A DNA stretch of 64,000 nucleotides. Source: Microbacterium phyllosphaerae. GTDB taxonomy: Bacteria > Actinomycetota > Actinomycetes > Actinomycetales > Microbacteriaceae. Position 1 is the stretch's first letter, and each line of letters starts with the position of its first letter. Below the pieces are notes generated by a model. The model ran no database searches. It was not told the DNA's origin and was given only the letters and a program-made list of their open reading frames with translations. The stretch covers positions 2,108,001-2,172,000 of the forward strand of contig NZ_JAGIOA010000001.1 of assembly GCF_017876435.1 (NCBI RefSeq), read 5' to 3'. Made by a program: the position numbers and the translations under genes. Positions 5,187 to 63,278 of the stretch are shown one piece after another.

Positions 5187-7286
5187 TCAGCGCGAGGCGA
5201 GCCCGACCGTGTCGAGGATCCACGCCAGCTCGAAGGCGCGTTCCTTCCACGAGTTGTACCGCCCGCTCACACCACCGTGCCCGGCGACCATCTCGCACTT
5301 GAGCAGTGCGTCCGAGGCCCCTGCGACGCGCAGCGCCGCGATCCACTTGGCCGGCTCCACATAGAGCACGCGGGTGTCGTTCAGCGACGTGACCGCGAGG
5401 ATGCGGGGATACCGGACGCCCTCGCGCACGTTCTCGTACGGCGAGTAGGACTTCATGTACTCGTAGACGTCTGCGCCGTGCAGAGGGTCGCCCCACTCGT
5501 CCCATTCGATCACCGTCAGGGGGAGCGAGGGATCCAGGATCGTCGTGAGTGCGTCGACGAAAGGCACTGCGGCCAGGATGCCGGCGAAGAGCTCGGGAGC
5601 GAGGTTTGTGACGGCTCCCATGAGCAGGCCGCCGGCGCTGCCGCCTTCTGCGACCAGCCTCTCGGGTGTCGTGATGCCCTGCTCGACGAGATGTTCGGCG
5701 CAGGCGACGAAGTCCGTGAACGTGTTGCGCTTGTTCAGGAGCTTGCCGTCCTCGTACCACTGGCGTCCCATCTCGCCGCCTCCGCGCACGTGGGCGACCG
5801 CGAAGATGATTCCGCGGTCGAGCTCCGACAGGCGAGCGACCGAGAAACCCGGGTCGATCGAGTGCTCGTACGATCCGTACCCGTACAGGTGCACAGGGCG
5901 GACCTCGGAGCCGGGCTCACCGAAGGATCGCTTCCAGACCAGCGAGATCGGCACCCGGGTGCCGTCGGATGCGGTCGCCCAGGCGCGCTGCTGACCGTAG
6001 TCGAGCGGGTCGTAGCCGCCCAGCACCGCGACCTGCTTGCGGAGTTCGAGCTCGCGCGTCGCGAGGTCGAGCTCGAACACCGTTCCCGGCGTCAAGAACG
6101 AGGTGTAGCCGAGGCGGAGGAACGGCGAGTGCCACTCGGGATTGCCGCTGACGCCTGCCGAATAGAGAGGCTCATCGAAGACGATGTCCTCCACGGCATC
6201 CGTCGCATAGTCGAGGAGCCCGACGCGCTCGAGCCCCTCGCTGCGGTACTCGACCGTGGCGAAATCCCGGAACGCGTCGACGCCGAGCAATCGCCGCCCC
6301 GGCTCGTGCGCGAGGACGACCCGTCGATCCCCCTGGGGCGCGGATGCCGCGACCGAGACGAGCTCGAAGTCCAGCGCGTCGTCGTTGTGGAGGATGTAGA
6401 GGCGGTCCTCTCCGTCGACCACGGCGTGCTCGAGCGAGTACTCGACACCCTCGCGCCGAGGCCACACGATCTCGGGGGCTGCGGTCAGGTCGCCCGAGAG
6501 GTCGACGAGGTACTCCTCGCTGGTGATGCTCGACCCCACGGCGATCACGAGGTACTTGCGGCTCCGGGTGATCCCGGCCCCGAGCCAGTACTTCTCGTCG
6601 GGCTCGTGGAAGAGCTTCACATCGTCAGACACGGGAGTGCCGAGGCGATGCAGCCAGAGCGTGTCGGGGCGCCAGGCGTCGTCCCTGGTCGTGTAGAGGA
6701 CGCCGGTGCCGTCCGGCGTGAAGAACGCGCCGCCCGTGTCGGGGATCTCGTCGGCGAGGGTCTCTCCGGTGGCGAGGTCTCGGACGTGGACCGTGTAGAG
6801 CTCGTCGCCCTCGAAATCCGTCGCCCAGAGCAGCTTCGTCGCGTCGTCAGAGGTGTCGAACGCGCCGAGCGAGAAGAACTCGTGGCCCTCGGCCTCGACG
6901 TTGCCGTCGAGCAGAACCGTCTCTCCGGGGACGGCGACGCCGGGTTCGAGGACCGGGGGAGTCCAGTCGTCCTCGGCGGCCGCGGTGCGGCAATGGATTC
7001 CGTACTGGGCGCCTTCCTCCGTGCGGCTGTAATACCACCAGTCTCCGCGCCGAGTCGGCACGGAGAGGTCGGTCTCCTGCACGCGCCCCTTGATCTCCTG
7101 GAACAGCGTCTCGCGCAGCTCGGAGAGGTGGGAGAGTTCGGCCTCGGTGTGTGCGTTCTCGGCTTCGAGGTGCGCGATCACCTCGGGGGAGTCCTTCTCA
7201 CGCAGCCATTCGTACGGGTCGTCGAAGGTGTCGCCGTGGTGAGTGCGGAGAGTCGAGCGGCGGTCTGCGGTCGGGGCATCAGTCAC
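5187..7286 (-). CDS. Prolyl oligopeptidase family serine peptidase (S9A, oligopeptidase B-like)
   Basis: A 699-residue cytoplasmic serine peptidase that cleaves short peptides: an N-terminal beta-propeller that limits substrate size, then an alpha/beta-hydrolase domain. The catalytic triad is visible in the C-terminal third: Ser in GGSAGG, Asp in SLNDTRV, and His in GHGGVSGR. The N-terminal DDPYEWLRE is typical of the family. GTG at 7286 is taken as start because the box TAGCGT ends exactly 7 nt before it; another in-frame GTG at 7295 would overlap that box. No signal peptide. Divergent from the phosphate transporter gene across a 156-bp region holding a PHO-box-like repeat. Whether it is oligopeptidase B (basic residues) or prolyl-specific cannot be told from motifs alone. 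Confidence 0.92.
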   Translation of the reverse strand: MTDAPTADRRSTLRTHHGDTFDDPYEWLREKDSPEVIAHLEAENAHTEAELSHLSELRETLFQEIKGRVQETDLSVPTRRGDWWYYSRTEEGAQYGIHCRTAAAEDDWTPPVLEPGVAVPGETVLLDGNVEAEGHEFFSLGAFDTSDDATKLLWATDFEGDELYTVHVRDLATGETLADEIPDTGGAFFTPDGTGVLYTTRDDAWRPDTLWLHRLGTPVSDDVKLFHEPDEKYWLGAGITRSRKYLVIAVGSSITSEEYLVDLSGDLTAAPEIVWPRREGVEYSLEHAVVDGEDRLYILHNDDALDFELVSVAASAPQGDRRVVLAHEPGRRLLGVDAFRDFATVEYRSEGLERVGLLDYATDAVEDIVFDEPLYSAGVSGNPEWHSPFLRLGYTSFLTPGTVFELDLATRELELRKQVAVLGGYDPLDYGQQRAWATASDGTRVPISLVWKRSFGEPGSEVRPVHLYGYGSYEHSIDPGFSVARLSELDRGIIFAVAHVRGGGEMGRQWYEDGKLLNKRNTFTDFVACAEHLVEQGITTPERLVAEGGSAGGLLMGAVTNLAPELFAGILAAVPFVDALTTILDPSLPLTVIEWDEWGDPLHGADVYEYMKSYSPYENVREGVRYPRILAVTSLNDTRVLYVEPAKWIAALRVAGASDALLKCEMVAGHGGVSGRYNSWKERAFELAWILDTVGLASR

Positions 7287-7293
7287 GGCATCC

Positions 7294-7299
7294 ACGCTA
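7294..7299 (-). promoter_or_regulatory. -10 box (TAGCGT), 7 nt before GTG of the oligopeptidase
   Basis: The spacing predicts transcription starting at or next to the GTG, giving a leaderless mRNA. It decides the start codon of this gene. Confidence 0.6.
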
Positions 7300-7351
7300 G
7301 CCCAGGTCGAGTTGACCGGCACCCGACAGGGTGGGAGGATTGCGCGGGGCC

Positions 7352-7380
7352 GGTTAACGGAAGTCAAACCCACGGTGAAC
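7352..7380 (+). promoter_or_regulatory. PHO-box-like 11-nt direct repeats upstream of the PiT transporter
   Basis: Three heptamers recur at exactly 11-nt steps: GGTTAAC (7352-7358), GTCAAAC (7363-7369) and GGTGAAC (7374-7380). Read on the opposite strand they are GTTCACC, GTTTGAC and GTTAACC, which resemble the direct-repeat units of the actinobacterial PhoP operator. The position, 62 nt before a phosphate transporter start, supports the reading; binding is inferred. Confidence 0.6.
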
Positions 7381-7442
7381 TCTTCGTTCGTCACGTCGAT
7401 CTCGTCGACACCTCCCTCTTCCTCAACGACCGAAAGCGAACG

Positions 7443-9160: not shown

Positions 9161-9184
9161 TCGGGCGCCGAGGATCGGGCGATC

Positions 9185-9751
9185 TCAGGGCAGCAGCCCT
9201 GCGACGAGGTCGTCGACGATGTCATCCGTCGAGGTTTCGGGATCGATCGGAGTGGTGAGTCGATCGAGCATCAGCCCGTCGATCGCGTAGTGGAACAGCG
9301 CGATCTCGCGCCGGCCGCCCGGCAGTCCCGCAGACGAGTTGAACTCGACGTCTCCGTCGAACCCGGCCCGCTGCCATGCACCGAGAAGGGCGGCGACCTC
9401 GGGGCGGCGGCTGCTCTCGAGCCGCAGCTCGAAGAGGGCCAGCGTCACATCGCGATCATCCGTGAGGCGTCGGACGATGTCGCGGATGTAGTCCGCGAAC
9501 AACTCTCTGCTCGGCGCCTCCGACGACCGGCGAACGAGATCGTCCTCGCTCGGGGCGAGCCGTTCCCCGATGCGCTCGACGAGCCCTTCGACCAGGGCAT
9601 CGCGACTCCGGAAGTAGTTCGATGTCGTGCCGACGGGGACGCCGGCGACGAGGTCGACGGCGCGATGCGTGAGTCCGCGTGACCCCTCCGTCGCGAGGAC
9701 AGTGAGCCCGGCATCCGCGATCAGTCGTCGTCTGGTCTCGTTCTTCGCCAT
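9185..9751 (-). CDS. TetR-family transcriptional regulator
   Basis: 188 residues. The N-terminal helix-turn-helix is typical of TetR: RRLIADAGLTVLATEG, then GLTHRAVDLVAGVPVGTTSNYF with recognition helix residues at about 28-47. The C-terminal ligand domain is not diagnostic. Divergent from the metallophosphoesterase gene, with both starts within 82 bp, so it may regulate itself and that neighbour. The short intergenic region holds an imperfect palindrome around CTACACCTGATGTGG (9770-9784) that could be its operator. Confidence 0.88.
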   Translation of the reverse strand: MAKNETRRRLIADAGLTVLATEGSRGLTHRAVDLVAGVPVGTTSNYFRSRDALVEGLVERIGERLAPSEDDLVRRSSEAPSRELFADYIRDIVRRLTDDRDVTLALFELRLESSRRPEVAALLGAWQRAGFDGDVEFNSSAGLPGGRREIALFHYAIDGLMLDRLTTPIDPETSTDDIVDDLVAGLLP

Positions 9752-9757
9752 GCAGGA

Positions 9758-9763
9758 ACCCTA
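9758..9763 (-). promoter_or_regulatory. -10 box (TAGGGT), 6 nt before ATG of the TetR gene
   Basis: Reads TAGGGT-tcctgc-ATG on the minus strand, predicting a leaderless transcript. Confidence 0.6.
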
Positions 9764-9820: not shown

Positions 9821-9826
9821 TAGGCT
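9821..9826 (+). promoter_or_regulatory. -10 box (TAGGCT), 6 nt before ATG of the metallophosphoesterase
   Basis: Reads TAGGCT-gagatc-ATG. No Shine-Dalgarno sequence is possible in the six intervening bases. Confidence 0.65.
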
Positions 9827-9832
9827 GAGATC

Positions 9833-10747
9833 ATGTCAGCGCACTCCGAGTCCGCGTTCGTCTTCGGCCGTCATGAGCCGGCGTCGCACGTGATCATCCA
9901 CGTGAGCGATCCGCATTTCCTCGCCGGTGGTGTCAGGCTCGGCGGTCGCTACGACGTGGAGTCGAACTTCGCTCGCACGCTGGGCGCGATCAGGACCGTG
10001 CACCCGCACCCCGCGGCGATCGTGATCACGGGCGATCTCACCGATCTGGGGGAGCCCGACGCCTACCGGCGTCTGCGCGCTGCCGTCGAGCCGGTGGCCG
10101 AGGAGCTCGGAGCTCCCGTGATCTGGGTCGCCGGCAACCATGACGAACGCCCGGCACTGCGGGAGGGGCTGCTCGACCTCGAGCCGACACAGGAGCCGAT
10201 CACCGGCGTGTGGGATCTCGACGGGCTCCGATTGATCGCCCTCGACACCAGCGTGCCCGGCTGGCATCACGGCGATCTCGGCGACGATCAGCTCGCCTGG
10301 TTGGCCGACATCCTTCGCGAACCTGCACCGCACGGCACGCTGCTCGCGATGCATCATCCACCTCTCCCGAGTCATGTGCCTCTGTTCGACATCCTGGAGC
10401 TGCGGCATCAGGACGAGCTCGCCGACGTCATCCGGGGGAGCGACGTGCGCGGCATCCTCGCCGGTCACCTGCACTACTCGGCGCACGGGACGTTCGCCGG
10501 CGTCCCGGTGAGCGTGTCCTCGGCCACCTGCTACACGATGAACGTCGCCCGGCCCGCTGCCGATGTGAACGGCATGGATGCCGCTCAGGCGTTCCAGCTC
10601 GTGCATGTGCGGCCCGACACGATCACGCACACCGTCGTTCCGGTGACCGACGCCCCGACCGGCGACCACTTCTCGCCCGCCTGGCTCGAGAGGATGGCGA
10701 AGCTCAGCCCCGCGGAGCGTCTCGAGGCCTTCTCGCGCAAACGCTGA
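9833..10747 (+). CDS. Calcineurin-like metallophosphoesterase (CpdA/Icc-type, cyclic nucleotide phosphodiesterase-like)
   Basis: A 304-residue dinuclear metal phosphoesterase. The five metal-binding motifs appear in order: VSDPHF, TGDLTD, GNHDE, MHHPP and GHLHYS. The arrangement and length match the class III cyclic nucleotide phosphodiesterases (E. coli CpdA, mycobacterial Rv0805), which hydrolyse 3',5'-cAMP and sometimes 2',3'-cyclic nucleotides. The C-terminal 40 residues carry no extra domain. Substrate cannot be decided from sequence; cAMP is a family-based guess. Divergent from a TetR gene that may control it. Confidence 0.88.
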   Translation: MSAHSESAFVFGRHEPASHVIIHVSDPHFLAGGVRLGGRYDVESNFARTLGAIRTVHPHPAAIVITGDLTDLGEPDAYRRLRAAVEPVAEELGAPVIWVAGNHDERPALREGLLDLEPTQEPITGVWDLDGLRLIALDTSVPGWHHGDLGDDQLAWLADILREPAPHGTLLAMHHPPLPSHVPLFDILELRHQDELADVIRGSDVRGILAGHLHYSAHGTFAGVPVSVSSATCYTMNVARPAADVNGMDAAQAFQLVHVRPDTITHTVVPVTDAPTGDHFSPAWLERMAKLSPAERLEAFSRKR

Positions 10748-12362: not shown

Positions 12363-13232
12363 TCAGTCGAGAACGCGGCAGTGCGTGGTGAGCTCGCCGA
12401 TGCCGTCGATGCCGACGGTCACCGTGGAGCGGTCACGCAGGAAGATCTGCGGATCGCGCGAGTATCCTGCACCGCCCGGGCTTCCCGTCGAGATCAGGGT
12501 GCCGGGCAGCAGCGTCAGCGACTGCGAGAGGTGCGCGATGAGCTTCGCGACCGACCGGACCATCTGGTCGGTGCTGGCATCCTGCACGGTCTGTCCGTCG
12601 ACGACGGCCCAGATGTGGAGGTCCTGCGGGTCGGCGATCTCGTCGGCCGTGACGGCGAAGGGGCCTGTCGGCGTGAATCCGTCGAACGACTTGCAGCGAG
12701 ACCACTGCGCCTCGGAGAACTGGACGTTCCGAGCGGTGATGTCGTTGACCACCGTGTACCCCCAGACGTGGGAGAGCGCGTCGGCTTCGGCGACATCCTT
12801 CGCAGGAGTGCCGATCAGCACACCGAGCTCGGCCTCGTAGTCCACCGCCTCGCTCAGCGCGCGCGGCCAGGAAGTCGTCTGCTCGTGTCCGGTGAGCGAA
12901 TTGGGCCACAGAGTGAACACGGTCGGTGCCGCGTCGGTCTTCAGCCCGAGCTCACTGGAGTGGGCCGCGTAGTTGAGTCCGACCGCGAGAACCGCGGGGG
13001 GAGCGATCACCGCGGAGGCGAACTCCCAGGCGTCGAGCGGATGCCGCGGTGCGTCGCTGCCCGCTACAGCGGATCGGAGTGCGGCGAGCATCTGCGCGCC
13101 GCCCTCGATCAGCTGCTGCAGCGAGGCAGGGGGGTCGGGAAGGAGATCGGAGACGAGGATGGCGTCGGCACCCTCCACCACTGCGAGATGCGCAGCGGGA
13201 GAGTCGGCACGACGCAGATGAGCGAACCGCAT
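12363..13232 (-). CDS. Fumarylacetoacetate hydrolase (FAH) superfamily enzyme
   Basis: A 289-residue protein with the FAH fold, whose members hydrolyse or decarboxylate beta-diketo acids, often in aromatic catabolism. Recognisable are VGLNYAAHSSELG, DYEAELGVLIG (metal-binding glutamates), GYTVVNDITARNVQ and the GTLISTGSPGGAG loop near the C-terminus. No catabolic partners are adjacent, so the substrate is open: fumarylpyruvate, oxaloacetate or an acylpyruvate are all possible. The ATG at 13232 has a -10 box ending 6 nt upstream. Confidence 0.88.
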   Translation of the reverse strand: MRFAHLRRADSPAAHLAVVEGADAILVSDLLPDPPASLQQLIEGGAQMLAALRSAVAGSDAPRHPLDAWEFASAVIAPPAVLAVGLNYAAHSSELGLKTDAAPTVFTLWPNSLTGHEQTTSWPRALSEAVDYEAELGVLIGTPAKDVAEADALSHVWGYTVVNDITARNVQFSEAQWSRCKSFDGFTPTGPFAVTADEIADPQDLHIWAVVDGQTVQDASTDQMVRSVAKLIAHLSQSLTLLPGTLISTGSPGGAGYSRDPQIFLRDRSTVTVGIDGIGELTTHCRVLD

Positions 13233-13238
13233 GCTTCT

Positions 13239-13244
13239 ACGCTA
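13239..13244 (-). promoter_or_regulatory. -10 box (TAGCGT), 6 nt before ATG of the FAH-family gene
   Basis: Reads TAGCGT-agaagc-ATG on the minus strand; leaderless architecture. Confidence 0.62.
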
Positions 13245-13308: not shown

Positions 13309-13314
13309 TATGCT
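13309..13314 (+). promoter_or_regulatory. -10 box (TATGCT), 7 nt before ATG of prsW
   Basis: Reads TATGCT-tttgcct-ATG, selecting 13322 over the upstream in-frame start at 13295 because the latter would lie 5' of the promoter box. Confidence 0.6.
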
Positions 13315-13321: not shown

Positions 13322-14770
13322 ATGAGTTCCGGAGGACCGTCCCAGCCATCGCCATACACGCCGCCGCCCGCGCCGCAGCAGCCTCCGGCCCAGCAACCTC
13401 CGGCTCCGCCCCAGCCGCAGGGGTATCCGCAGCAGCAGCAGCCCGCTCCGCAGCAGCCCGGGTACTCGCAGCAGCCCGGGTATCCGCAGCAGCCCGGATA
13501 CCCGCAGCAGCCGCAGGCGTACCCCGCGAACCAGCCGCCGGCCCCGCAGCAGTACTCCGCTCAGCAGTACGCGCAGTCGAGCTACATGCCCGCCCCTTTC
13601 TCGCAGCGTCCCGCGTACGCGTCCGTTCTCGCTCAGCCGACTCCCTACTCTCCGCCTGCGCCCGCGGCTCCGTCTCCTGCACAGGGGCTGCCCGCGCTGC
13701 CCGCTGCCCGTCGCGGCGGACGCATCGCCCTCTATTGCCTGTTCGGGTTCCTCGGCCTGCTGCTTCTGGCGCTGATCGCCTACTTCGGTCTGGCCCTGGG
13801 CCCGCTGGCATCGGTCATCGGCCTCGTACTCGCACTGGTTCCGCTCGCGATCGTCTTCTTCGTCGTACGGATGATCGATCGATGGGAGCCCGAGCCCAAG
13901 TCTCTCGTGTTCTTCGCGATCGCCTGGGGTGCCATCGCGGCCGTCGGGCTGACGCTCCTCGTCGATCTCGGTCTCACCGCCGTCCTCGGCATGAGGGGAG
14001 AGGTCGCCGGAGCGGTGATCCAGGCGCCCATCGTCGAGGAGTTCTGGAAGGGCTTCGGTGTCTTCCTGATCTTCCTGATCGCCCGCCGTTCGTTCGACGG
14101 CCCGGTCGACGGCGTCGTCTACGGCGCCCTGGTGGGTGCGGGCTTCGCCTTCACCGAGAACATCCAGTACTTCGCGATCAGTCTCATCGAGGGCGGTGGC
14201 GAGCAGCTCACCGTGACGTTCATCCTGCGGGCGATCATGTCGCCGTTCGCGCATGCGATGTTCACCTCGCTCACCGGCCTCGCGATCGGGCTGGCCGCTC
14301 GGCGCCACGCCTCGGCAGGTGCGGCGCTCGGGTTCGGTCTTCTCGGGATGCTCGGCGCGATGTTCCTGCACGGGCTCTGGAACGGGTCGTCGTTCGCGAA
14401 CTTCTTCCTGCTCTACTTCGTGCTGCAGGTCCCTCTGTTCGTCGGTTTCATCTTCGGTATCATCGCGCTTCGGCGGGAGGAATCCCGACTGACCAAGGCG
14501 CGCCTCGGCGACTACGCCGCCGCCGGATGGTTCACGCCCGAAGAGGTCACCATGCTGGCCACGCCGGCCGGTCGCAAGACCGGGCTGGGCTGGGCCGCGC
14601 AACTGCGCGGAGACCGCCGCCCGCTCATGCGCGAGTTCATCAAGGACGCCACGACGCTCGCATCCGTTCGCCAGCGCGCCATCACGGGCCGCGACCCGAT
14701 GGCTCCGGCGGACGAGCAGGCTCTGCTCGCTCGTACACGGGCCACGAGGGCGGCTCTCCTGGCCTACTGA
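13322..14770 (+). CDS. PrsW-family intramembrane metalloprotease
   Basis: 482 residues. An approximately 130-residue N-terminal region dominated by Pro, Gln and Tyr (QQPGY repeats) is followed by 8-9 membrane segments. The PrsW motifs are present in the membrane domain: IVEEFWKG (paired glutamates), GFAFTENIQYF, a His in FAHAMFTS, and HGLWNGSS. In Bacillus PrsW starts regulated proteolysis of the anti-sigma factor RsiW; actinobacterial homologues have no proven substrate. No sigma/anti-sigma pair is adjacent. The repeat-rich cytoplasmic tail is absent from Bacillus PrsW and may mediate interactions. Confidence 0.9.
   Translation: MSSGGPSQPSPYTPPPAPQQPPAQQPPAPPQPQGYPQQQQPAPQQPGYSQQPGYPQQPGYPQQPQAYPANQPPAPQQYSAQQYAQSSYMPAPFSQRPAYASVLAQPTPYSPPAPAAPSPAQGLPALPAARRGGRIALYCLFGFLGLLLLALIAYFGLALGPLASVIGLVLALVPLAIVFFVVRMIDRWEPEPKSLVFFAIAWGAIAAVGLTLLVDLGLTAVLGMRGEVAGAVIQAPIVEEFWKGFGVFLIFLIARRSFDGPVDGVVYGALVGAGFAFTENIQYFAISLIEGGGEQLTVTFILRAIMSPFAHAMFTSLTGLAIGLAARRHASAGAALGFGLLGMLGAMFLHGLWNGSSFANFFLLYFVLQVPLFVGFIFGIIALRREESRLTKARLGDYAAAGWFTPEEVTMLATPAGRKTGLGWAAQLRGDRRPLMREFIKDATTLASVRQRAITGRDPMAPADEQALLARTRATRAALLAY
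13448..13513 (+). repeat. 18-bp tandem repeats in the prsW N-terminal tail
   Basis: Three near-identical 18-bp units (13448-13465, 13466-13483, 13484-13501) plus a partial fourth encode PQQPGY, SQQPGY, PQQPGY and PQQP. Copy number is likely to vary between strains. Confidence 0.8.
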
Positions 14771-14966: not shown

Positions 14967-14996
14967 TTGACCCGTACCGGGGCGCTCGGGTTGGAT
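14967..14996 (+). promoter_or_regulatory. Promoter of the FKBP gene (TTGACC - 18 nt - TTGGAT)
   Basis: -35 TTGACC (14967-14972) and -10 TTGGAT (14991-14996) with an 18-nt spacer; the -10 ends 6 nt before the ATG at 15003. This is one of the few leaderless promoters here with a clear -35. Confidence 0.65.
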
Positions 14997-15002: not shown

Positions 15003-15371
15003 ATGACTGATCGCACAAAGCCTGAGTTCGACGCCCCCACCGGCCCCGCTCCCGCGGAGCTCGTGATCCGCGACCTCATCGAAGGAGACGGCGCCGAGGC
15101 GAAGCCCGGCGACACCGTGACCGTGCACTACGCCGGTGTCGAGTTCGAGTCCGGCGAGGAGTTCGACTCGTCGTGGGGTCGTGGCGAGACCATCCAGTTC
15201 CCGCTCCGCGGTCTGATCCAGGGTTGGCAGGACGGCATCCCCGGTATGAAGGTCGGCGGACGCCGTGAGCTGGTCATCCCGCCGCATCTCGCCTACGGGC
15301 CCGTCGGAGGCGGACACTTCCTCTCCGGCAAGACCCTCATCTTTATCATCGACCTCGTCGCCGTCGGCTGA
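15003..15371 (+). CDS. FKBP-type peptidyl-prolyl cis-trans isomerase
   Basis: 122 residues, essentially one FKBP domain, catalysing cis-trans isomerisation of X-Pro bonds during protein folding. Typical signatures are GDTVTVHYAGV, FDSSWGRGETIQFPL, LIQGWQDGIPGMKVGGRRELVIPPHLAYG and a final FIIDLVAV strand. No signal peptide, so cytoplasmic. ATG at 15003 is preferred because a promoter ends 6 nt before it. It is flanked by two hairpins and therefore monocistronic. Confidence 0.94.
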   Translation: MTDRTKPEFDAPTGPAPAELVIRDLIEGDGAEAKPGDTVTVHYAGVEFESGEEFDSSWGRGETIQFPLRGLIQGWQDGIPGMKVGGRRELVIPPHLAYGPVGGGHFLSGKTLIFIIDLVAVG

Positions 15372-19227: not shown

Positions 19228-20232
19228 TCAGGCGCTCGTCCCGACCAGGTCTGGATGATGGATCGCCGCCACGTCGGGGTGGGCGCGCAGTCGTGACTTC
19301 ATGGCGTTCTCGCCGTAGGTGGCGTGGATGGGGTTGCTCGGGTCCTCGGTGATGCCGGTCGCCTCGGCGGCGAGGTCTGCCGGCAGTTCGAGGAGCGGCA
19401 GCTGCTGGTCGAGGGCGGGGTTGAAGAAGAACGGGATCGAGATGCGCTCCTCGGGCGCCTTCGGCGAGATCACGCGATGGTTGGTCGCCTTGAGGTAGCC
19501 GCCGGTCGCGTACTCGAGCAGTTCTCCGATGTTGACGACGAACGCTCCGGGGACCGGGGGAGCAGACACCCACTCGCCGTCGCGCTCCACCTGCAGCCCG
19601 CCCTTGCCCGGCTCCACCCAGAGCAGGGTGAGGACGCCGGAGTCCTTGTGCGCGCCGACACCCTGCTGGGGCTCCGGCTCATGGGTGCCCGGGTAGCGGA
19701 CGATCTTGATGAGGGTCGACGGGTCACGGAAGGGTTCGTCGAAGTACGTCTCCTCCGCCCCGAGGGTGGTGGCCCAGGCTCGTAGCAGCTTGTGCGCGAT
19801 CTCGGTCAGTGTGTCGTGCCATTCCGTGACGACCGCTTTGAGCTCGGGCTGCGCAGCGGGCCACAGGTTCGGGCCCACCAGGCGGTTGAAGGCCGGCCCG
19901 CCCTCGACGGGCTCGCGCTCCGGGCCGATGTCGATCTGCTCGCGCCAGTCGACCTTGCCCTGGGTCCGTTCTCCGCCGATGCGGGTGTACCCCCGGAAGT
20001 GCGGGCTGTTGACGTTCTCGATCGCGAGCTTGTCGTCGTCCGGCAGCGCGAAGAAATCCAGCGCCGCTCGATGCAGGCGCGCTTCCAGCTCGGGGGAGAT
20101 CCCGGTGCCCGTGAGGTAGAAGAAGCCCACATCGTGGGTCGCGGCCCTGAGGTCGTCTCGGAATCGCGCGGCGGCCTCGGGGCCGGCATCGAGCTGGGAC
20201 AGGTCGAGGATGGGGAGCGAGAGATCAGCCAT
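19228..20232 (-). CDS. Isopenicillin N synthase-like 2-oxoglutarate/Fe(II) oxygenase
   Basis: 334 residues of the 2OG-Fe(II) oxygenase superfamily. N-terminal DIOX_N region: LPILDLSQLD, FRDDLRAATHDVGFFYLTG. Iron ligands: His and Asp in GVGAHKDSGVLTLL and the distal His in KATNHRVISP, with RISIPFF supplying the usual co-substrate arginine. Bacterial members oxidise varied small molecules; there is no beta-lactam cluster here, so antibiotic synthesis is not implied. Divergent from the iron operon efeUOB, whose DtxR-like operator lies about 110 bp away. Confidence 0.88.
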   Translation of the reverse strand: MADLSLPILDLSQLDAGPEAAARFRDDLRAATHDVGFFYLTGTGISPELEARLHRAALDFFALPDDDKLAIENVNSPHFRGYTRIGGERTQGKVDWREQIDIGPEREPVEGGPAFNRLVGPNLWPAAQPELKAVVTEWHDTLTEIAHKLLRAWATTLGAEETYFDEPFRDPSTLIKIVRYPGTHEPEPQQGVGAHKDSGVLTLLWVEPGKGGLQVERDGEWVSAPPVPGAFVVNIGELLEYATGGYLKATNHRVISPKAPEERISIPFFFNPALDQQLPLLELPADLAAEATGITEDPSNPIHATYGENAMKSRLRAHPDVAAIHHPDLVGTSA

Positions 20233-20238: not shown

Positions 20239-20244
20239 AGCGTA
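20239..20244 (-). promoter_or_regulatory. -10 box (TACGCT), 6 nt before ATG of the 2OG oxygenase
   Basis: Reads TACGCT-cggtga-ATG on the minus strand. Confidence 0.6.
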
Positions 20245-22592: not shown

Positions 22593-22598
22593 TACGAT
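22593..22598 (+). promoter_or_regulatory. -10 box (TACGAT), 7 nt before GTG of efeB
   Basis: Suggests an internal promoter giving a leaderless efeB mRNA in addition to readthrough from efeUO. It argues for GTG 22606 over the ATG at 22630, which in turn has AAGGA 4 nt upstream. Confidence 0.45.
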
Positions 22599-25959: not shown

Positions 25960-25965
25960 AGGCTA
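25960..25965 (-). promoter_or_regulatory. -10 box (TAGCCT), 6 nt before ATG of the acyltransferase
   Basis: Reads TAGCCT-cggagg-ATG. The CGGAGG touching the ATG is too close to act as a normal Shine-Dalgarno. Confidence 0.55.
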
Positions 25966-27962: not shown

Positions 27963-28020
27963 AGGGCCATGAGGCCGTAGACGATGTCCGAAGGGCGTCG
28001 TACGGTGACCTCATGGCCCT
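27963..28020. repeat. Perfect 12-bp inverted repeat bracketing the FAD-oxidase promoter
   Basis: AGGGCCATGAGG (27963-27974) and CCTCATGGCCCT (28009-28020) are exact complements 34 bp apart. The right arm contains the ATG of the FAD oxidase; the left arm lies upstream of its -10. It could be a two-site operator for looping, or in readthrough RNA a stem that hides the start codon. Confidence 0.6.
28001..28006 (+). promoter_or_regulatory. -10 box (TACGGT), 6 nt before ATG of the FAD oxidase
   Basis: Reads TACGGT-gacctc-ATG. It selects 28013 over the upstream in-frame start at 27929. Confidence 0.6.
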
Positions 28021-33258: not shown

Positions 33259-33264
33259 AGCCTA
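33259..33264 (-). promoter_or_regulatory. -10 box (TAGGCT), 7 nt before ATG of the DUF5302 gene
   Basis: Reads TAGGCT-ggcgaac-ATG on the minus strand. Confidence 0.65.
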
Positions 33265-41938: not shown

Positions 41939-41944
41939 TAGACT
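41939..41944 (+). promoter_or_regulatory. -10 box (TAGACT), 6 nt before ATG of dapB
   Basis: Reads TAGACT-gaacgc-ATG. Confidence 0.65.
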
Positions 41945-44607: not shown

Positions 44608-44613
44608 AGAATA
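44608..44613 (-). promoter_or_regulatory. -10 box (TATTCT), 6 nt before ATG of the thioredoxin gene
   Basis: Reads TATTCT-ctatcc-ATG on the minus strand. Confidence 0.6.
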
Positions 44614-44684: not shown

Positions 44685-44690
44685 TAGTCT
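44685..44690 (+). promoter_or_regulatory. -10 box (TAGTCT), 7 nt before ATG of thyA
   Basis: Reads TAGTCT-ggcagac-ATG. Confidence 0.65.
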
Positions 44691-46776: not shown

Positions 46777-46782
46777 TAGGAT
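46777..46782 (+). promoter_or_regulatory. -10 box (TAGGAT), 7 nt before ATG of the EF-Tu domain II-like gene
   Basis: Reads TAGGAT-cgacagt-ATG and selects 46790 as start. Confidence 0.6.
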
Positions 46783-47252: not shown

Positions 47253-47258
47253 TACGCT
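47253..47258 (+). promoter_or_regulatory. -10 box (TACGCT), 7 nt before ATG of dapA
   Basis: Reads TACGCT-tgggggc-ATG; selects 47266. Confidence 0.62.
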
Positions 47259-50042: not shown

Positions 50043-50048
50043 TAGGCT
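50043..50048 (+). promoter_or_regulatory. -10 box (TAGGCT), 6 nt before ATG of the GNAT gene
   Basis: Reads TAGGCT-ctgtgc-ATG. Confidence 0.65.
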
Positions 50049-50054: not shown

Positions 50055-50549
50055 ATGTCGGACTCCTTCTCGATCAGACCCGCCGCGCAGGCGGACGGGA
50101 GCTTTCTCGGCGACATGGTCGTCGAGGCGGCGAACTGGCGCTCGGGCGGAGCGCGGGCGCGCCATGAGATCCTGACCGCGACCGAGCACCGACGTTACAT
50201 CGCAGGGTGGATGCGGCCGGCGGACGCGGGTTTCGTGGCGATCGACACCGAGGGGCAGCCCATCGGTGCTGCCTGGTACCGGATGCTGTCGCAGGATGAC
50301 CCCGGCTTCGGCTTCGTGGGAACGGCGGTGCCTGAACTCATCATCGGAGTTCAGCCGATCTGGCGTGCCCACGGCGTCGGCCGGACGCTGCTGCGCCGGT
50401 TGGTGGCACACGCGGGGGAGCAGGGCCACCCGAGGATCAGCCTGAGCGTGGAACGCGACAACTTCGCACGCACCCTCTATCGGTCGGAGGGGTTCGTCGT
50501 CACGGACATCGGGGATGCCCGCGACACCATGGTGCACCGCGCGTCCTGA
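50055..50549 (+). CDS. GNAT family N-acetyltransferase
   Basis: 164 residues with the acetyl-CoA binding loop WRAHGVGRTLLRRLVAHA and the following strand and helix RISLSVERDNFARTLYRSEGF, a pattern of small-molecule or protein N-acetyltransferases. Acceptor unknown. It has its own promoter, downstream of RNase J and upstream of ftsK. Confidence 0.87.
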   Translation: MSDSFSIRPAAQADGSFLGDMVVEAANWRSGGARARHEILTATEHRRYIAGWMRPADAGFVAIDTEGQPIGAAWYRMLSQDDPGFGFVGTAVPELIIGVQPIWRAHGVGRTLLRRLVAHAGEQGHPRISLSVERDNFARTLYRSEGFVVTDIGDARDTMVHRAS

Positions 50550-50619
50550 AGGGGGCCGCCGCACCCGCGCGAAGACGCCGGAATGCCGCGTCATTACGGG
50601 AAATGTCGGCCTCTGGTCG

Positions 50620-50625
50620 TAACGT
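50620..50625 (+). promoter_or_regulatory. -10 box (TAACGT), 6 nt before ATG of ftsK
   Basis: Reads TAACGT-gagagc-ATG. Confidence 0.6.
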
Positions 50626-50631: not shown

Positions 50632-53367
50632 ATGGCCAGGAGTACCACGAAGTCAGCGCGCGCGTCCGAGAGCGCCACGCCTCGCCCCAAGAGGCAGGCC
50701 GCTCCGAAGGCTCAGGCTGCGCCGAAGAAATACATCGACGAACTCGACAAGCCTCCCGTCGCCGTGCGCGCGTGGGCCGGTCTTGCCCACGGCGTCGGCG
50801 GACTCTTCCGTGCGTTCGGTCCTGAGACCCTCGAGAAGGACGACCGGCGTGACGGCTTCCCGTTCCTGCTCGTGCTGCTCGCGATCGCCGGCGCAGTCAA
50901 CGAGTGGTTCTTCATCGGCAACGAGGTCGCCTCGAACATCAGCGCCTACTCGGTCGGTCTGCTGGTCGGCCGCGTCGCCTTCGTGATGCCGGTGCTGCTT
51001 CTGCTGCTGGCCGGTTGGCTGTTCCGTCATCCGTCCTCCGTCCACGACAACGGGCGCATCGGCATCGGGTTCGGCCTCTTCGTGCTCACCCTCGCGGGCT
51101 TCTGCCACATCGCCGCCGGCCGAGCCGACTCGGCAGGACTGCTGGTGCGTGCCCAGCCGAAAGACGGCATGCCGGCACTGAGCGAGGCCGGCGGTCTCTT
51201 CGGATGGATGGTTGGCGAGCCCCTCTCGTACCTCACGCCCGTCGGCGCCTACATCGTGCTGACGCTCCTCGCGGGGCTCAGCGTGCTGATCCTCACCAAG
51301 ACGCCGCCGAACCGCATCGGTCAGCGACTCGGCGACCTGTACGCGTGGATGTTCGATGCCGAGCGCACCGAGAAGCCGTCGAAGGACGCGGTCGCGATCG
51401 ACGACGCCGACAAGGTCGACGACCCGGATGTCCTGCCCTGGTGGCGGCGGAACAAGACGGGTCGTGAAGAGGACCCCGACGAGGGGACTCTCGGATCCGA
51501 CGACATCACCGCTCTCCTCACCACCTCCGAGCCGACGCCCGCCTACGACCAGGCCGTCGTGGTCGAAGACCCGTACGATGCCGCGACCGAAGTGCTGTCC
51601 GATGTGCGCTCCGTGACGGAGTCGTTGGCCGGTCAGCAGACCACTGCGCTGCTCGATGACGGGTCCGACACGGGCGAGGTTCCCGAGCTGCCGGGTCTCG
51701 ACGGCTTCGGAACCTCCGGGCCGGGGGAGCGGGGCCCCCAGGCGCCCGTCGCTCCGTACATCCTGCCGTCCCCGGGGCTGCTCGTCGAAGGGCCGCCCCC
51801 GGTCGTCCGTTCCGAGGCGACCGACAAGGTGATCGAGCAGATCACGAGCGTGCTGAGCCAGTTCAAGGTCGATGCGAAGGTGACCGGCTTCTCGCGGGGC
51901 CCGACGGTCACGCAGTACGAGGTCGAGGTCGGTCACGGCGTCAAGGTCGAGAAGATCCTCCAGCTGAGCAACAACTTCGCGTACGCCGTCGCTTCCAACG
52001 ACGTGCGCATCCTGTCGCCGATCCCGGGCAAGAGCGCCATCGGCATCGAGATCCCCAACGCCGACAAGGAGATGGTCGCGCTCGGCGACGTGCTGCGGTC
52101 CCCGGCCGCGCACAAGAGCACGCATCCGATGACCATCGGCGTCGGAAAAGACGTCGGCGGCAACATCGTCATCGCGAACCTCGCGAAGATGCCTCACCTC
52201 CTCGTCGCCGGTTCCACGGGTTCCGGTAAGTCGAGCTTCGTGAACTCCATGATCACGAGCCTGCTGATGCGCGCGCGGCCCTCGGACGTGCGGATGGTCC
52301 TCATCGACCCGAAGCGCGTCGAGCTCACGAGCTATGCGGGTGTTCCGCACCTGATCACGCCGATCATCACGAACCCCAAGAAGGCCGCCGAGGCACTCCA
52401 GTGGGTCGTGAAGGAGATGGACATGCGGTACGACGACCTCGCGTCGTTCGGATTCCGCCACATCGACGATTTCAACCGCGCAGTGCGTGCAGGCGAGGTC
52501 GAGCTGCCCGTGGGCAGCGAGCGGGTGCTCAAGCCGTACCCGTATCTCCTCGTGGTCGTCGACGAGCTCGCCGACCTGATGATGGTCGCTCCCCGTGACG
52601 TCGAGGACTCGATCGTCCGCATCACCCAGCTCGCTCGAGCCTCCGGGATCCACCTGGTGCTCGCGACGCAGCGACCGAGCGTCGACGTCGTCACAGGTCT
52701 GATCAAGGCCAATGTGCCCTCCCGACTCGCATTCGCCGTGACCAGCGTCACCGACAGCCGAGTGATCCTCGACAGCCCAGGTGCAGACAAGCTGATCGGG
52801 CAGGGTGACGCGCTCTTCTCACCGATGGGCTCGTCGAAGCCGTTCCGTCTGCAGGGTGCGTGGGTCGACGAGAAGGAGATCGACGCGGTCGTGAAGCACG
52901 TCACCCGCCAGGCTCGGCCGGACTACCGTGCCGACGTCCAGGAGGCGATGGAGCCGACCAAGAAGAAGGAGGTCGACGAGGACATCGGAGACGATCTCGA
53001 GCTGCTGCTCGCGGCGGCCGAGCTCATCGTGTCTTCGCAGTTCGGATCGACGTCGATGCTCCAGCGCAAGCTGCGCGTGGGCTTCGCGAAGGCCGGTCGC
53101 CTGATGGACCTTCTGGAGTCGCGCGAGATCGTCGGGCCCTCCGAAGGGTCTAAGGCAAGGGACGTGCTGGCTACCGCCGAGCAGCTGCCGCAGGTCATGG
53201 CGAAGCTCCGAGGCGACGACGCGCCGACCGCAGCACCCACAGTGGCCCCGGCGACGGCCGCGGGCCTGCCGCATGACCCGGTCGAGGCCCAGTTCCAGGG
53301 GCTTCCGGTCGTCGAAGCCGATGACGATGGCGATGAAGACGCCTGGGGATTGACGGGACGCGACTGA
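50632..53367 (+). CDS. ftsK: DNA translocase FtsK/SpoIIIE
   Basis: 911 residues: basic N-terminus, four membrane segments (about 75-225), an acidic linker (about 245-375), then the alpha and RecA-like beta motor domains with Walker [12 protein letters not shown] (about 525-535) and Walker [11 protein letters not shown] (about 640-650), the [18 protein letters not shown] segment, and the C-terminal gamma winged helix ([22 protein letters not shown]) that reads KOPS. It pumps chromosome ends through the division septum. The stop overlaps the pgsA ATG (TGATG). The linker is short compared with E. coli FtsK, as usual in Actinobacteria. Confidence 0.96.
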
Positions 53368-55210: not shown

Positions 55211-55391
55211 CTGCACAAGTGGTTCAGAGATCTTGTTCTCCCTGTTTCCCGGTGCCGGCGACTCAATGTCCGAGGCCCCTCGTACGGTGAGAAGCAAGCC
55301 GAAGAGCCATACGCCTTGTCGGAGAGTTCCGCCCAGCCGGGAGGACCGCGACAGCCTACAGGCGGCACCACGCGAGCATAAGGAGCCCGTC

Positions 55392-56435
55392 ATGCCATCA
55401 CCCGCTGACCGCGAGAAGTCCCTCGAGACCGCACTCGCACAGATCGATCGCCAGTTCGGAAAGGGCTCGGTCATGCGGCTGGGCAGCGACGAGCGTGCCC
55501 CCGTCGCCGTGATCCCGACCGGCTCCATCGCCCTCGACGTCGCTCTCGGCGTCGGAGGCCTCCCGCGTGGTCGAATCGTAGAGATCTACGGTCCGGAGTC
55601 GTCCGGTAAGACGACGCTCACGCTGCACGCGATCGCTAATGCTCAGCGTGCCGGCGGAATCGCGGCCTTCATCGATGCTGAGCACGCGCTCGACCCCGAC
55701 TACGCGGCGAAGCTCGGCGTCGACATCGATGCCCTTCTCGTCTCGCAGCCTGACACGGGTGAGCAGGCTCTGGAGATCGCGGACATGCTCGTGCGTTCCG
55801 GGGCCATCGACCTCATCGTCATCGACTCCGTGGCGGCTCTCGTGCCGCGCGCCGAGATCGAGGGTGAGATGGGCGACTCGCACGTCGGTCTCCAGGCTCG
55901 ACTGATGTCCCAGGCGCTGCGAAAGCTCACGGGTGGACTCAACCAGACGAACACGACGATGATCTTCATCAACCAGCTGCGCGAGAAGATCGGTGTCTTC
56001 TTCGGATCGCCCGAGACCACCGCGGGTGGAAAGGCGCTGAAGTTCTACGCGTCGGTTCGCATGGACATCCGCCGAATCGAGACGCTCAAGGACGGCACCG
56101 ATGCGGTCGGAAACCGCACCAGGGTCAAGGTTGTGAAGAACAAGATGGCTCCGCCCTTCAAGCAGGCGGAGTTCGACATCCTCTATGGTGTCGGCATCTC
56201 ACGCGAGGGCAGCCTGATCGACTTCGGTGTCGAGCACGGCATCGTCAAGAAGTCGGGTTCCTGGTACACCTACGACGGTGATCAGCTCGGGCAGGGCAAG
56301 GAGAACGCGCGTACGTTCCTGCTCAAGAACCCAGACATCGCACTGGCGATCGAGACGCAGATCAAGCAGAAGCTCGGTATCGGCGGCGCCGTCGAAGCAC
56401 CGGCTGACGAGCTCGCTGAGCGTCGTCCGGCGTGA
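55392..56435 (+). CDS. recA: Recombinase A
   Basis: 347 residues. Forms filaments on single-stranded DNA for homologous recombination and activates LexA self-cleavage. Walker [10 protein letters not shown], Walker [11 protein letters not shown], loop L1 [12 protein letters not shown], loop L2 near [20 protein letters not shown], and the C-terminal ATPase/DNA domain with GKENARTFL. No intein. AAGGAG lies 7 nt before the ATG. recX follows 39 nt downstream. Confidence 0.98.
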
Positions 56436-59994: not shown

Positions 59995-60045
59995 TGCGGA
60001 TGTGCGTCGCGACCTGATGTCGGTGGTCGATGGGAAGCTGAGTAC

Positions 60046-60573: not shown

Positions 60574-60587
60574 TCCGGCGCCGATTC

Positions 60588-60593
60588 TAGACT
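60588..60593 (+). promoter_or_regulatory. -10 box (TAGACT), 6 nt before ATG of the second GNAT gene
   Basis: Reads TAGACT-gggggc-ATG. Confidence 0.65.
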
Positions 60594-60599
60594 GGGGGC

Positions 60600-61058
60600 A
60601 TGGAGTGGGCAGTACGGGCGTTCGAGCGCGCCGACACGGAATCGGTGGTCGCGCTTTGGGATGAAGCGGGCCTGACCCGACCGTGGAACGACCCTCGGCT
60701 CGACATCGAACGCAAGCTCACGGTGCAGCCCGAGCTCTTCCTCGTCGTCGAGGAGTCGGAGGGAAGGGGCTCGGAGCGAGAGTCCGACGAGCGGCTGATC
60801 GTCGGCTCCGTCATGGCCGGGTATGACGGCCACCGCGGGTGGCTCTACTATCTGGCCACAGCGGCATCGCATCGCCAGCGTGGGGTCGCCCGATCGCTCG
60901 TCCGAGAGGCTGAGCGTCGACTTCTCGCGATGGGATGCCCGAAGGTGCAGCTCATGGTCAGAGAGGGGAACGACGCGGTGCTGGGCTTCTACGACGCGCT
61001 CGGTTATGAGCGGTTCTCCGTGTCGAACACGGGCAAGCGTCTGATCGTCGACGCATAG
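60600..61058 (+). CDS. GNAT family acetyltransferase (YpeA-like)
   Basis: 152 residues. WDEAGLTRPWNDPRLDIERKL at the N-terminus and SHRQRGVARSLVREAERRLLAMG (acetyl-CoA loop) followed by KVQLMVREGNDAVLGFYDALGY match the YpeA branch of GNAT enzymes. A charged insert (EESEGRGSERESDE) lies between strands. Acceptor unknown. Confidence 0.88.
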   Translation: MEWAVRAFERADTESVVALWDEAGLTRPWNDPRLDIERKLTVQPELFLVVEESEGRGSERESDERLIVGSVMAGYDGHRGWLYYLATAASHRQRGVARSLVREAERRLLAMGCPKVQLMVREGNDAVLGFYDALGYERFSVSNTGKRLIVDA

Positions 61059-61068
61059 CGGAGATCTC

Positions 61069-61074
61069 TAGACT
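61069..61074 (+). promoter_or_regulatory. -10 box (TAGACT), 6 nt before ATG of dapF
   Basis: Reads TAGACT-ggtcga-ATG. Confidence 0.68.
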
Positions 61075-61080
61075 GGTCGA

Positions 61081-61953
61081 ATGGTCGCATTCACCAAAGG
61101 TCACGGCACCGGCAACGATTTCGTCATCATCGCCGATCCCGACGGGGCTCTCGATCTGAGTGCCGAGCAGGTCGCCGTGCTGTGCGACCGACACTTCGGC
61201 ATCGGCGCCGACGGCATCCTTCGTGTCGTGCGCTCCGCCGCGATCGCCGAGGGACAGGCCGCGCTCGCTGAGGAACCCGATGCCGAGTGGTTCATGGACT
61301 ACCGGAACGCCGACGGGTCGATCGCCGAGATGTGCGGCAACGGGATCCGGGTGTTCGCGCACTACCTCGTGCGCTCCGGCCTCGCGACCATCGAACCGGG
61401 ATCCACACTGCCGATCGGAACCCGCGCAGGCGTCCGCGACGTCACGCGGAGCGAGACCGGGTACCAGGTCGATCTCGGCCTCTGGAAGCTCTCGGGCGAC
61501 GATCCGCTCGTCACTACCGACGGCCTTGCGGTGACGCGGCCCGGACTCGGAATCGACGTCGGGAATCCCCACGTGGTGGTCGCTCTCGCATCCGAGGCCG
61601 AACTCGCCTCGTTGGAACTCCACCGTGCCCCCGCGCTCGATCCGGTGCTTCCGGCGGGAGCCAACGTCGAGTTCGTCGTCCCGGGGGAGCCGCTCGTGCG
61701 TGACGGAATCGGTCACGTCACCATGCGCGTGTCCGAGCGTGGAGTCGGCGAGACGCTCAGCTGCGGCACCGGTGTGGCAGCCACGGCTCTGGCCGTCCGT
61801 CACTGGGCAGGCGAGAAGGCTCCCCACAACTGGCGCGTCGAGGTGCCGGGCGGCACTCTCGGCGTGCGTATGTTCCCTGCGGAGGACGGTGAGCACGTCG
61901 CTCTGTCCGGACCCGCTCAGCTGGTGTTCAGCGGCGAGGTCGACCTGATCTGA
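61081..61953 (+). CDS. dapF: Diaminopimelate epimerase
   Basis: 290 residues. Interconverts LL- and meso-diaminopimelate for lysine (and, in many bacteria, peptidoglycan) synthesis. The two catalytic cysteines are Cys85 in [11 protein letters not shown] and Cys228 in [19 protein letters not shown] opens the protein. Its position after miaA and before hflX is conserved in Actinobacteria. The HAD gene overlaps its stop (TGATG). Confidence 0.96.
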
Positions 61954-62606
61954 TGCGTTCGATCGAGCCCGTCGACCTGGTCATCTTCGACTGCGACGGC
62001 GTTCTCGTCGACAGCGAGCGCCTCTCGATCGAGGTGGATCGCCGGGTCCTCGCCGACCTCGGGTGGACTCTCTCGCGGGAAGAGATCCTGCATCGCTTCG
62101 TCGGCCGTTCCTCCGCGCACTTCCGCTCCGAGATCGAAGCGCATCTCGGGCGGTCGCTCGCGGATGACTGGGAGACGCCCTACCAGCCCTGGTACGTCGA
62201 CGCGTTCGAGCGCGAACTCACGCCAGTGCCCGGTATCGAGGCTGCGCTCGATGAGCTCTCGGTGACGACGTGCGTCGCATCGAGCGGGGCGCATTCGAAG
62301 ATCCGACGGACACTGGGGTTGACCGGACTGCTCCCACGTTTCGCGGGGCGGATATTCAGCGCCGATGACGTCGAGAACGGCAAGCCGGCCCCGGATCTCT
62401 TCCTGCATGCGGCCGACCGTCTCGGAATCGTGCCGGATCGCTGCGCGGTGGTCGAGGACAGCCGCTTCGGAGTCCAGGCGGCTCGTGCTGCCGGGATGCG
62501 GGTATTCGGCTACGCCGGGGGCCTCACTCCGGCTGAGTGGCTGGAACGCGAAGGAGCGACCGTATTCACGGACATGCGCGGACTGCCCTCCCTGCTGGGG
62601 TGGTGA
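61953..62606 (+). CDS. HAD-superfamily hydrolase (subfamily IA)
   Basis: 217 residues. Motif I DCDGVLVDSE with the nucleophile Asp, motif II in VASSGAHSKI, motif III Lys in GKPAPDLFLHAADRLG, and motif IV VVEDSRFGVQAARAAGM. Similar in style to phosphoglycolate/sugar-phosphate phosphatases (YieH, YfbT). Translationally coupled to dapF, though no functional link to the pathway is evident. Confidence 0.9.
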   Translation: MRSIEPVDLVIFDCDGVLVDSERLSIEVDRRVLADLGWTLSREEILHRFVGRSSAHFRSEIEAHLGRSLADDWETPYQPWYVDAFERELTPVPGIEAALDELSVTTCVASSGAHSKIRRTLGLTGLLPRFAGRIFSADDVENGKPAPDLFLHAADRLGIVPDRCAVVEDSRFGVQAARAAGMRVFGYAGGLTPAEWLEREGATVFTDMRGLPSLLGW

Positions 62607-62624
62607 GCAGCGCGGGATCCGATC

Positions 62625-63266
62625 TCAGACGAGTGTGATGGGCTCGGTCGGAGGGGTGCCGTGCTTGCGGACCTTCAGCACCCGGTATCCCTTGGCGGTC
62701 GTCGTGCGGTAGACGCTGAAGCCGGGCTGGAACGTCGCGCCGATCCAGCGCTGCAGCGAATCCGCGCCCAGATTGCGCTGCACGACGAGCCAGGCGTCGC
62801 TGCGCTCATCGAGGCGGGGAATCCACTTCTCGAGGAGCCCGTGCAGCTCGTTCTTGCCCACGCGGATCGGCGGGTTGGAGCGGATGGAGCGGAACGTCAC
62901 GTCGGAGGGAACATCCTGGGGCAGGGATGCGTTGACATTCTTGAGACGGAGAGCTGCTGCGTTGCGCCGAACCAGGTCGAGGGCTCGTTCGTTCACGTCC
63001 ACGGCCCACACGGTCGCGTGCGGCGCGGCGATAGCCATCGAGAGGGTGATCGGGCCCCACCCGCTTCCGAGGTCGAGAAGATGGCCTCCCGGCGGAACGG
63101 GAGGCATGTTCGAGAGAAGGACGGCAGTACCGGCATCCAGCCGATCCGGGCTGAAGACGCCACCAGCGGTGGTGAGGTCCAGCTCACGGCCTGCGAGCGT
63201 CACACGGATCGATCGCAGGTTCTCGGGGCTTGCCGGGGCCGCGGTGAAGTAATGGTCGGACCCCAT
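62625..63266 (-). CDS. Class I SAM-dependent methyltransferase (RsmC/RlmG-like)
   Basis: 213 residues. SAM site LLDLGSGWGPITLSMA, then AVDVNERALDLVRRNAAAL, and the N6/N2-guanine or adenine motif SNPPIRVGK in the SxNPPI position. The family includes 16S rRNA m2G1207 (RsmC) and 23S m2G1835 (RlmG) enzymes; this one is a single-domain version. N-terminal HYFTAAPASPENLR is the usual start in Actinobacteria. Divergent from hflX. Confidence 0.9.
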   Translation of the reverse strand: MGSDHYFTAAPASPENLRSIRVTLAGRELDLTTAGGVFSPDRLDAGTAVLLSNMPPVPPGGHLLDLGSGWGPITLSMAIAAPHATVWAVDVNERALDLVRRNAAALRLKNVNASLPQDVPSDVTFRSIRSNPPIRVGKNELHGLLEKWIPRLDERSDAWLVVQRNLGADSLQRWIGATFQPGFSVYRTTTAKGYRVLKVRKHGTPPTEPITLV

Positions 63267-63272
63267 ACCGTG

Positions 63273-63278
63273 AGCGTA
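63273..63278 (-). promoter_or_regulatory. -10 box (TACGCT), 6 nt before ATG of the RsmC-like gene
   Basis: Reads TACGCT-cacggt-ATG on the minus strand; selects 63266 as start. Confidence 0.62.

Follow-up and report, generated by a model that had tools for sequence, protein, structure and literature searches.

A fixed -10 box before start codons in Microbacterium phyllosphaerae, and a phased upstream element that points to a probable, mostly leaderless PafBC-type DNA-damage regulon

We analysed a window of 64,000 nucleotides (nt), positions 2108001-2172000 of the single-contig genome (3,728,650 bases) of Microbacterium phyllosphaerae, in which a short box of the form TANNNT recurs at a nearly constant distance before start codons on both strands. 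The initial annotation had listed 21 such starts with a box 6 or 7 nt upstream and had predicted that transcription begins on the start codon. Throughout, the gap is the number of nt between the end of the -10 box and the start codon. An exact TANNNT was found at 20 of the 21 starts, with gap 6 in 13 and gap 7 in seven, and the listed split of 14 and seven is reached once the start at 15003, preceded by TTGGAT at gap 6, joins the 13 exact gap-6 boxes. Nineteen of these genes start with ATG and two with GTG (7286, 22606). The boxes, in window coordinates, are as follows.

7294..7299, minus strand: TAGCGT, 7 nt before the GTG at 7286; prolyl oligopeptidase family, S9
9758..9763, minus strand: TAGGGT, 6 nt before the ATG at 9751; TetR-type regulator
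9821..9826, plus strand: TAGGCT, 6 nt before the ATG at 9833; phosphodiesterase-like, divergent from 9751
13239..13244, minus strand: TAGCGT, 6 nt before the ATG at 13232; fumarylacetoacetate hydrolase family
13309..13314, plus strand: TATGCT, 7 nt before the ATG at 13322; PrsW-like, below the NCBIfam cut-off
14991..14996, plus strand: variant box TTGGAT, 6 nt before the ATG at 15003; FKBP-type isomerase
14967..14972, plus strand: TTGACC, -35-like, 18 nt before the variant box of 15003
20239..20244, minus strand: TACGCT, 6 nt before the ATG at 20232; no NCBIfam match
22593..22598, plus strand: TACGAT, 7 nt before the GTG at 22606; deferrochelatase/Dyp peroxidase
25960..25965, minus strand: TAGCCT, 6 nt before the ATG at 25953
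28001..28006, plus strand: TACGGT, 6 nt before the ATG at 28013; FAD-binding oxidoreductase
33259..33264, minus strand: TAGGCT, 7 nt before the ATG at 33251; DUF5302
41939..41944, plus strand: TAGACT, 6 nt before the ATG at 41951; dapB
44608..44613, minus strand: TATTCT, 6 nt before the ATG at 44601; thioredoxin-like
44685..44690, plus strand: TAGTCT, 7 nt before the ATG at 44698; thymidylate synthase
46777..46782, plus strand: TAGGAT, 7 nt before the ATG at 46790; EF-Tu domain 2-like
47253..47258, plus strand: TACGCT, 7 nt before the ATG at 47266; dapA
50043..50048, plus strand: TAGGCT, 6 nt before the ATG at 50055; GNAT
50620..50625, plus strand: TAACGT, 6 nt before the ATG at 50632; ftsK
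60588..60593, plus strand: TAGACT, 6 nt before the ATG at 60600; GNAT
61069..61074, plus strand: TAGACT, 6 nt before the ATG at 61081; dapF
63273..63278, minus strand: TACGCT, 6 nt before the ATG at 63266; methyltransferase

Genes were called with a codon-usage scorer of our own that ignores upstream sequence. It called 61 genes in the window, agreed with the listed start in 17 of the 21 cases and chose another in-frame start in four (7286, 13232, 22606, 28013). Boxes were then counted either strictly, at the codon-score start only, or freely, at any in-frame start within 60 nt. Under the strict count, 16 of the 61 window genes have a box at gap 6 or 7, and under the free count there are 13 matches at gap 6 and seven at gap 7; the 28 other gaps (0-5, 8-29) together hold 10 matches, giving an expectation of 0.7 per two gaps. 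A first sample of 800 genes, consisting of the window and 40 stretches of 20 kilobases (kb), had a box at gap 6 in 91 genes and at gap 7 in 26; no other gap between 0 and 23 had more than five. An offset histogram of the kind suggested by the initial annotation was made for a larger sample (the window and 60 stretches of 20 kb; 1.264 megabases (Mb), 1151 genes), and it peaks at gap 6 (140) and gap 7 (41), the other gaps (0-5, 8-23) having a mean of 2.1 each. The proportion first given, about a third of genes, holds within the window under free starts but not in the sample, where the share is about 16% by strict count (181/1151) and 19% with free starts (222/1151). The window is denser than the rest of the sample whether starts are free (20/61 vs. 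202/1090, P = 0.011, Fisher’s exact test) or strict (P = 0.029), and the high density of boxed starts is thus local to the window.

If the box positions the polymerase, its spacing is expected to be kept in relatives. Six of the 21 starts were compared: 15003, ftsK (50632), and 7286, 13232, 22606 and 28013, the last four because their listed starts differed from the codon-score starts. For 7286, 13232 and 15003, 25 loci were read out of 29 matching genomes; genus counts include our own Microbacterium locus. The box was found in all 25 loci both for 7286 (gap 6 in 22, gap 7 in three) and for 13232 (gap 6 in 23, gap 7 in two), and at these two starts the proposed rule for calling starts outdid the codon-score caller. 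At 28013, six of 25 fetched loci were read, the rest being weaker matches, mostly of 26-37% identity, or pieces; a gap-6 box was detected by script in five, and the sixth (L177), in which the same box is seen by eye, was missed because its alignment starts late and out of frame. The ftsK comparison used a separate collection, the best 80 of 584 loci, and there the box is present in 80 of 80 (gap 6 in 69, gap 7 in 11), with none at gaps 3-5 or 8-15; the loci are related and hence do not amount to 80 independent events. The window’s FtsK protein has its closest records in Microbacterium (98% to Microbacterium sp. Leaf159 in the best segment).

The start at 15003 departs from the consensus while keeping the distance. 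All 25 genus loci carry TTGGAT, TTGTAT, TTTGAT or TTGAAT at gap 6 (23) or gap 7 (two), patterns that were written only after the sequences had been inspected, and none of the 25 has a TANNNT at gaps 3-12. In 15 of them TTGAC lies 17-18 nt before the variant box. The deviating -10 box is therefore often paired with a -35 element at an unchanged distance to the start, as if the -35 element compensated for a weaker -10 box. With 15003 counted through its variant box, the spacing is kept at five of the six compared starts.

Several properties of boxed genes in the larger sample are those expected of genes without a leader. Matches to the Shine-Dalgarno sequence are scarce at boxed starts (14/181, compared with 468/970 at unboxed starts; P = 4×10−28), and a pyrimidine at -1 is commoner (133/181 vs. 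556/970; P = 5×10−5). In the first sample, a same-strand upstream neighbour within 20 nt was found for eight of 110 boxed genes, as against 210 of 647 unboxed ones. No common -35 signature was detected at the 117 boxed starts of the first sample, nor in the 1151-gene sample. The predicted leaderless transcription is supported by the single register of the box, by the few Shine-Dalgarno matches and by a gap that in relatives shifts only between 6 and 7, and the accompanying remark that leaderless genes are familiar in Actinobacteria agrees with published work (PMC3160421, PMC3898074). The boxes are probably sigma-A -10 elements of leaderless genes. A housekeeping (sigma-A type) -10 box would be set so that RNA polymerase begins at the first base of the start codon, A or G, and the resulting messenger RNAs (mRNAs), having no leader, would be translated without a Shine-Dalgarno sequence; we infer this start of transcription and mode of translation from the sequence.

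Other regularities were followed and mostly abandoned. In the first sample, 24 of 26 gap-7 promoters had a pyrimidine at -1 and only three of 26 a GTG start, as if the first were required and the second avoided; both ideas were dropped after the larger sample (P = 0.069 and P = 0.32). The frequent G at the third position of the box (83/140 at gap 6, 19/41 at gap 7) has no clear tie to the reading frame, and its explanation by an in-frame stop codon was rejected. An A directly after the box, at -6, is depleted (3/181 boxed vs. 209/970 unboxed), an effect weaker than it appears because A follows any TANNNT in only 98 of 1538 cases. As a separate observation, three divergent pairs have a predicted leaderless start on both sides (9751/9833, 13232/13322 and 44601/44698), with start-to-start distances of 82, 90 and 97 base pairs (bp).

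Two of the 21 listed starts, ftsK and 28013, carry a second element that the initial annotation had overlooked, TGTCSG, separated from the box by exactly 10 nt.

27985..27990, plus strand: -26 element TGTCCG of PafBC type, 10 nt before the box of 28013
50604..50609, plus strand: -26 element TGTCGG of PafBC type, 10 nt before the ftsK box

At gap 6, TGTCSG covers positions of about -28 to -23 relative to the start codon. TGTCC is visible by eye in all six loci read for 28013, our own included. Among the best 80 ftsK loci, TGTC stands at the spacing of this element in 60, and no other spacing between 0 and 29 has it more than once. By eye, its distance to the box is the same in gap-6 and gap-7 ftsK loci, so the register of TGTCGG is tied to the promoter rather than to the start codon. 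A stretch resembling GCGTCATTACG lies at 50588-50598, upstream of the ftsK TGTCGG, and by eye is largely conserved among ftsK loci (L043-L122). The phasing extends well beyond these two genes. Among the 328 occurrences of TANNNT-N6/7-RTG in the 1.264-Mb sample, which were collected independently of gene calls, TGTCSG was found 13 times at N10 and nine times across 40 other spacings (Poisson P = 5×10−19), and genome-wide there are 46 occurrences of TGTC-N12-TANNNT-N6/7-RTG compared with eight of the reversed pattern. Of these two controls, the comparison of spacings is the stronger.

The genome holds 37 sites of the full form TGTCSG-N10-TANNNT-N6/7-RTG, and 18 of them, as a raw share, stand before genes that act in DNA repair, replication, recombination or chromosome transport. 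The named targets are uvrA, uvrB, dnaE, xth, tag, ligA, radA, sbcD and ftsK, and others resemble mfd, recG, rarA, SRAP, AlkZ, SprT, UvrD, a ResIII helicase and an RNase_T exonuclease; several of the target reading frames end at the edge of the locus and are hence partial. The TGTC core with a different ending precedes recF, polA and an RNase H gene. The PafBC promoter consensus is tTGTCRGtg-N8-TAnnnT. Adjacent pafB and pafC genes are present in the genome, followed by tatA, a gene that is tatC-like by eye and a helicase gene; PafC matches HTH_PafC (6×10−33), and both proteins match the PafBC chains 6sj9, 7p5x and 9fnd in the PDB. In published work, PafBC sits between promoter DNA and domain 4 of sigma-A, with PafB on the -26 motif, and is activated by single-stranded DNA (ssDNA) (PMC11804915). 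By analogy, PafBC activated by ssDNA would bind the -26 element, which replaces a -35 element, and recruit sigma-A (sigma adaptation), and DNA repair genes would then be switched on as mostly leaderless mRNAs. Set beside the box geometry and its conservation at the compared loci, the phased motif, the gene content and the pafB-pafC pair suggest that TGTCSG promoters would be bound by PafBC and induced by DNA damage.

A promoter of the same type is found before recA.

55267..55288, plus strand: PafBC-type promoter of recA, TGTCCG-N10-TACGGT; the start codon at 55392 is 103 nt after the box

The recA gene (55392-56435) would have a leader of roughly 97 nt, and an AAGGAG site precedes its start codon. 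PafBC-type promoters are thus not all leaderless, the recA start being far from the box. A recX-like gene lies downstream (56454). No match to two simple SOS-box patterns was found within the window.

The full site was also sought in a phylum-wide sample of 149 genomes. In the class of the host, all 13 genomes (our own included) have 5-37 sites each by hand tally, compared with 0-3 for the reversed pattern; the totals are 268 and 10, the reversed control being one that leaves the general leaderless enrichment in. The 136 genomes from other classes mostly have 0-4 sites each, and nine genomes of one family (f13) have 1-11. Three large genomes of the host’s class (G051, G132 and G151; 7.9-9.7 Mb, one genus) have 23, 17 and 17 sites, the reversed pattern giving 1, 0 and 3, counts that bear on the PafBC question in large-genome actinomycetes. 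We lean slightly towards the view that across Actinomycetes the PafBC regulon consists mainly of a fused module that holds -26 element, -10 box and start codon in a fixed register and would give damage-induced leaderless mRNAs. If this is true, including the start codon in the search motif would expose the regulon where the mycobacterial motif alone missed it.

A genome from another family (G088) has 15 sites in total. Its targets with a DNA role are a RadA-like protein with the same Pfam pattern as the host RadA, a gyrB-type subunit, a RecQ-like helicase, a PD-(D/E)XK nuclease and an exonuclease with GIY-YIG; four further targets are a glycosyl hydrolase, a member of the DHDPS family, a protein lacking any Pfam match and a frame of 44 codons. 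In the same genome, five DUF222 proteins (L319, L320, L328, L330 and L331, one with an HNH match) each stand behind a predicted leaderless PafBC-type site, as does a Cas3 gene (L329), for which a link between CRISPR expression and DNA damage is possible. Elsewhere, site strings in G171 and G121 are repeated identically at several positions and may belong to a repeated element.

Explanations other than leaderless promoters were weighed for the box itself. Free choice among in-frame starts lifts the matches at other gaps as well, and a motif with only three fixed bases could in principle be found by chance in this way; with 20 matches where 0.7 were expected and the spacing conserved in genus loci, chance is refuted for the set as a whole, and we give it next to no credence. 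The box could also be a translation or DNA signal beside the start codon, the true promoters lying further upstream and the mRNAs having leaders. The missing -35 signature at boxed starts would fit such an arrangement, whereas the poverty of boxed genes in Shine-Dalgarno matches and close same-strand neighbours and their excess of pyrimidine at -1 do not; moreover, the M. tuberculosis box is likewise centred 7-12 bp before mapped starts and has no -35 element (PMC3898074). We consider leadered mRNAs very improbable.

The identity of the factor bound at TGTCSG is somewhat less certain. WhiA targets include division genes, and for this reason WhiA was the first guess as the binder of TGTCGG, later replaced by PafBC. 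The WhiA site is GACAC, and a WhiA site would not predict uvrA, uvrB or ligA as targets. For ClgR, a clgR-like gene (54593, below the NCBIfam cut-off) lies in the window upstream of recA, and a P1 motif is reported to be recognised by ClgR (PMC5656591). Against any such regulator (WhiA/WhiB or ClgR, for example) stand the distance of TGTCSG, which matches the PafBC -26 element, the DNA repair or replication role of half of the target genes and the pafBC pair in the genome; a regulator other than PafBC is unlikely.

Some of our observations speak against leaderless promoters with a PafBC-dependent subset. All gene calls are our own and come from the codon score alone. At 22606, where 21 of 25 fetched loci were read, the gap-7 box is present in only five of the 21, all near relatives; the spacing is not kept, and this start, the weakest of the six compared, is a doubtful member. 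Exact TGTC is missing at the element position in 20 of the best 80 ftsK loci. Fifteen of the 37 genomic sites precede genes without an evident DNA role and four precede frames of fewer than 40 codons, and in the sample 13 PafBC-type sites are leaderless compared with six that are not (backgrounds per spacing 0.22 and 1.05). PafC-like matches occur in 115 of the 149 genomes and do not separate genomes with the motif from those without, in a search that other WYL proteins match too; by hand tally, 20 listed of the 34 genomes without a PafC-like match have 27 sites and 12 reversed. With these points weighed, it is very probable that the boxes are leaderless sigma-A promoters and that the TGTCSG subset is a PafBC-dependent, mostly leaderless DNA-damage regulon.

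The leaderless geometry is a known actinobacterial feature. In Zheng et al. (2011, PMC3160421), TA-led genes are reported in 86 of 89 actinobacterial genomes and make up 19.2% of genes on average, a mean near our sample-wide share; their TANNNT is the same, its first T lying about 12 bp before the start, so that the basic geometry is identical and only the window is locally denser here. In M. tuberculosis, 73% of mapped primary starts have a TANNNT whose centre lies 7-12 bp upstream, 22-26% are leaderless, C is commonest at -1 and no -35 motif is described, according to Cortes et al. (2013, PMC3898074); those leaderless starts were measured by RNA sequencing, whereas the Microbacterium starts are predicted from sequence. 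In practice, the geometry is a usable rule for calling starts, by which two codon-score calls were corrected.

Beyond the known geometry, this analysis adds the phased subset, for which a PafBC-type DNA-damage regulon of mostly leaderless genes is the best reading, and the phased -26 element makes the geometry a predictor of that regulon in Microbacterium. We found no description of a leaderless PafBC regulon, or of PafBC in Microbacterium, in the open-licence literature searched. RecA-NDp promoters are reported in S. coelicolor (PMC5087735) and stated generally for Actinobacteria (PMC8223512), and the authors of a LexA study of Streptomyces venezuelae wrote that their first search pointed to a lack of conservation of the M. 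smegmatis PafBC motif in that species (PMC9380542). How far the PafBC regulon reaches could be settled directly with a motif into which the start codon is built. Like the known PafBC-dependent (RecA-NDp) promoters, those of Microbacterium combine an element near -26 and sigma-A with recA, uvr-type genes and pafBC (PMC11804915, PMC6789036, PMC8223512, PMC5656591, PMC5087735). Unlike them, 13 of the 19 Microbacterium sample sites have a start codon 6-7 nt downstream of the -10 box, and the targets include ftsK, dnaE and ligA.

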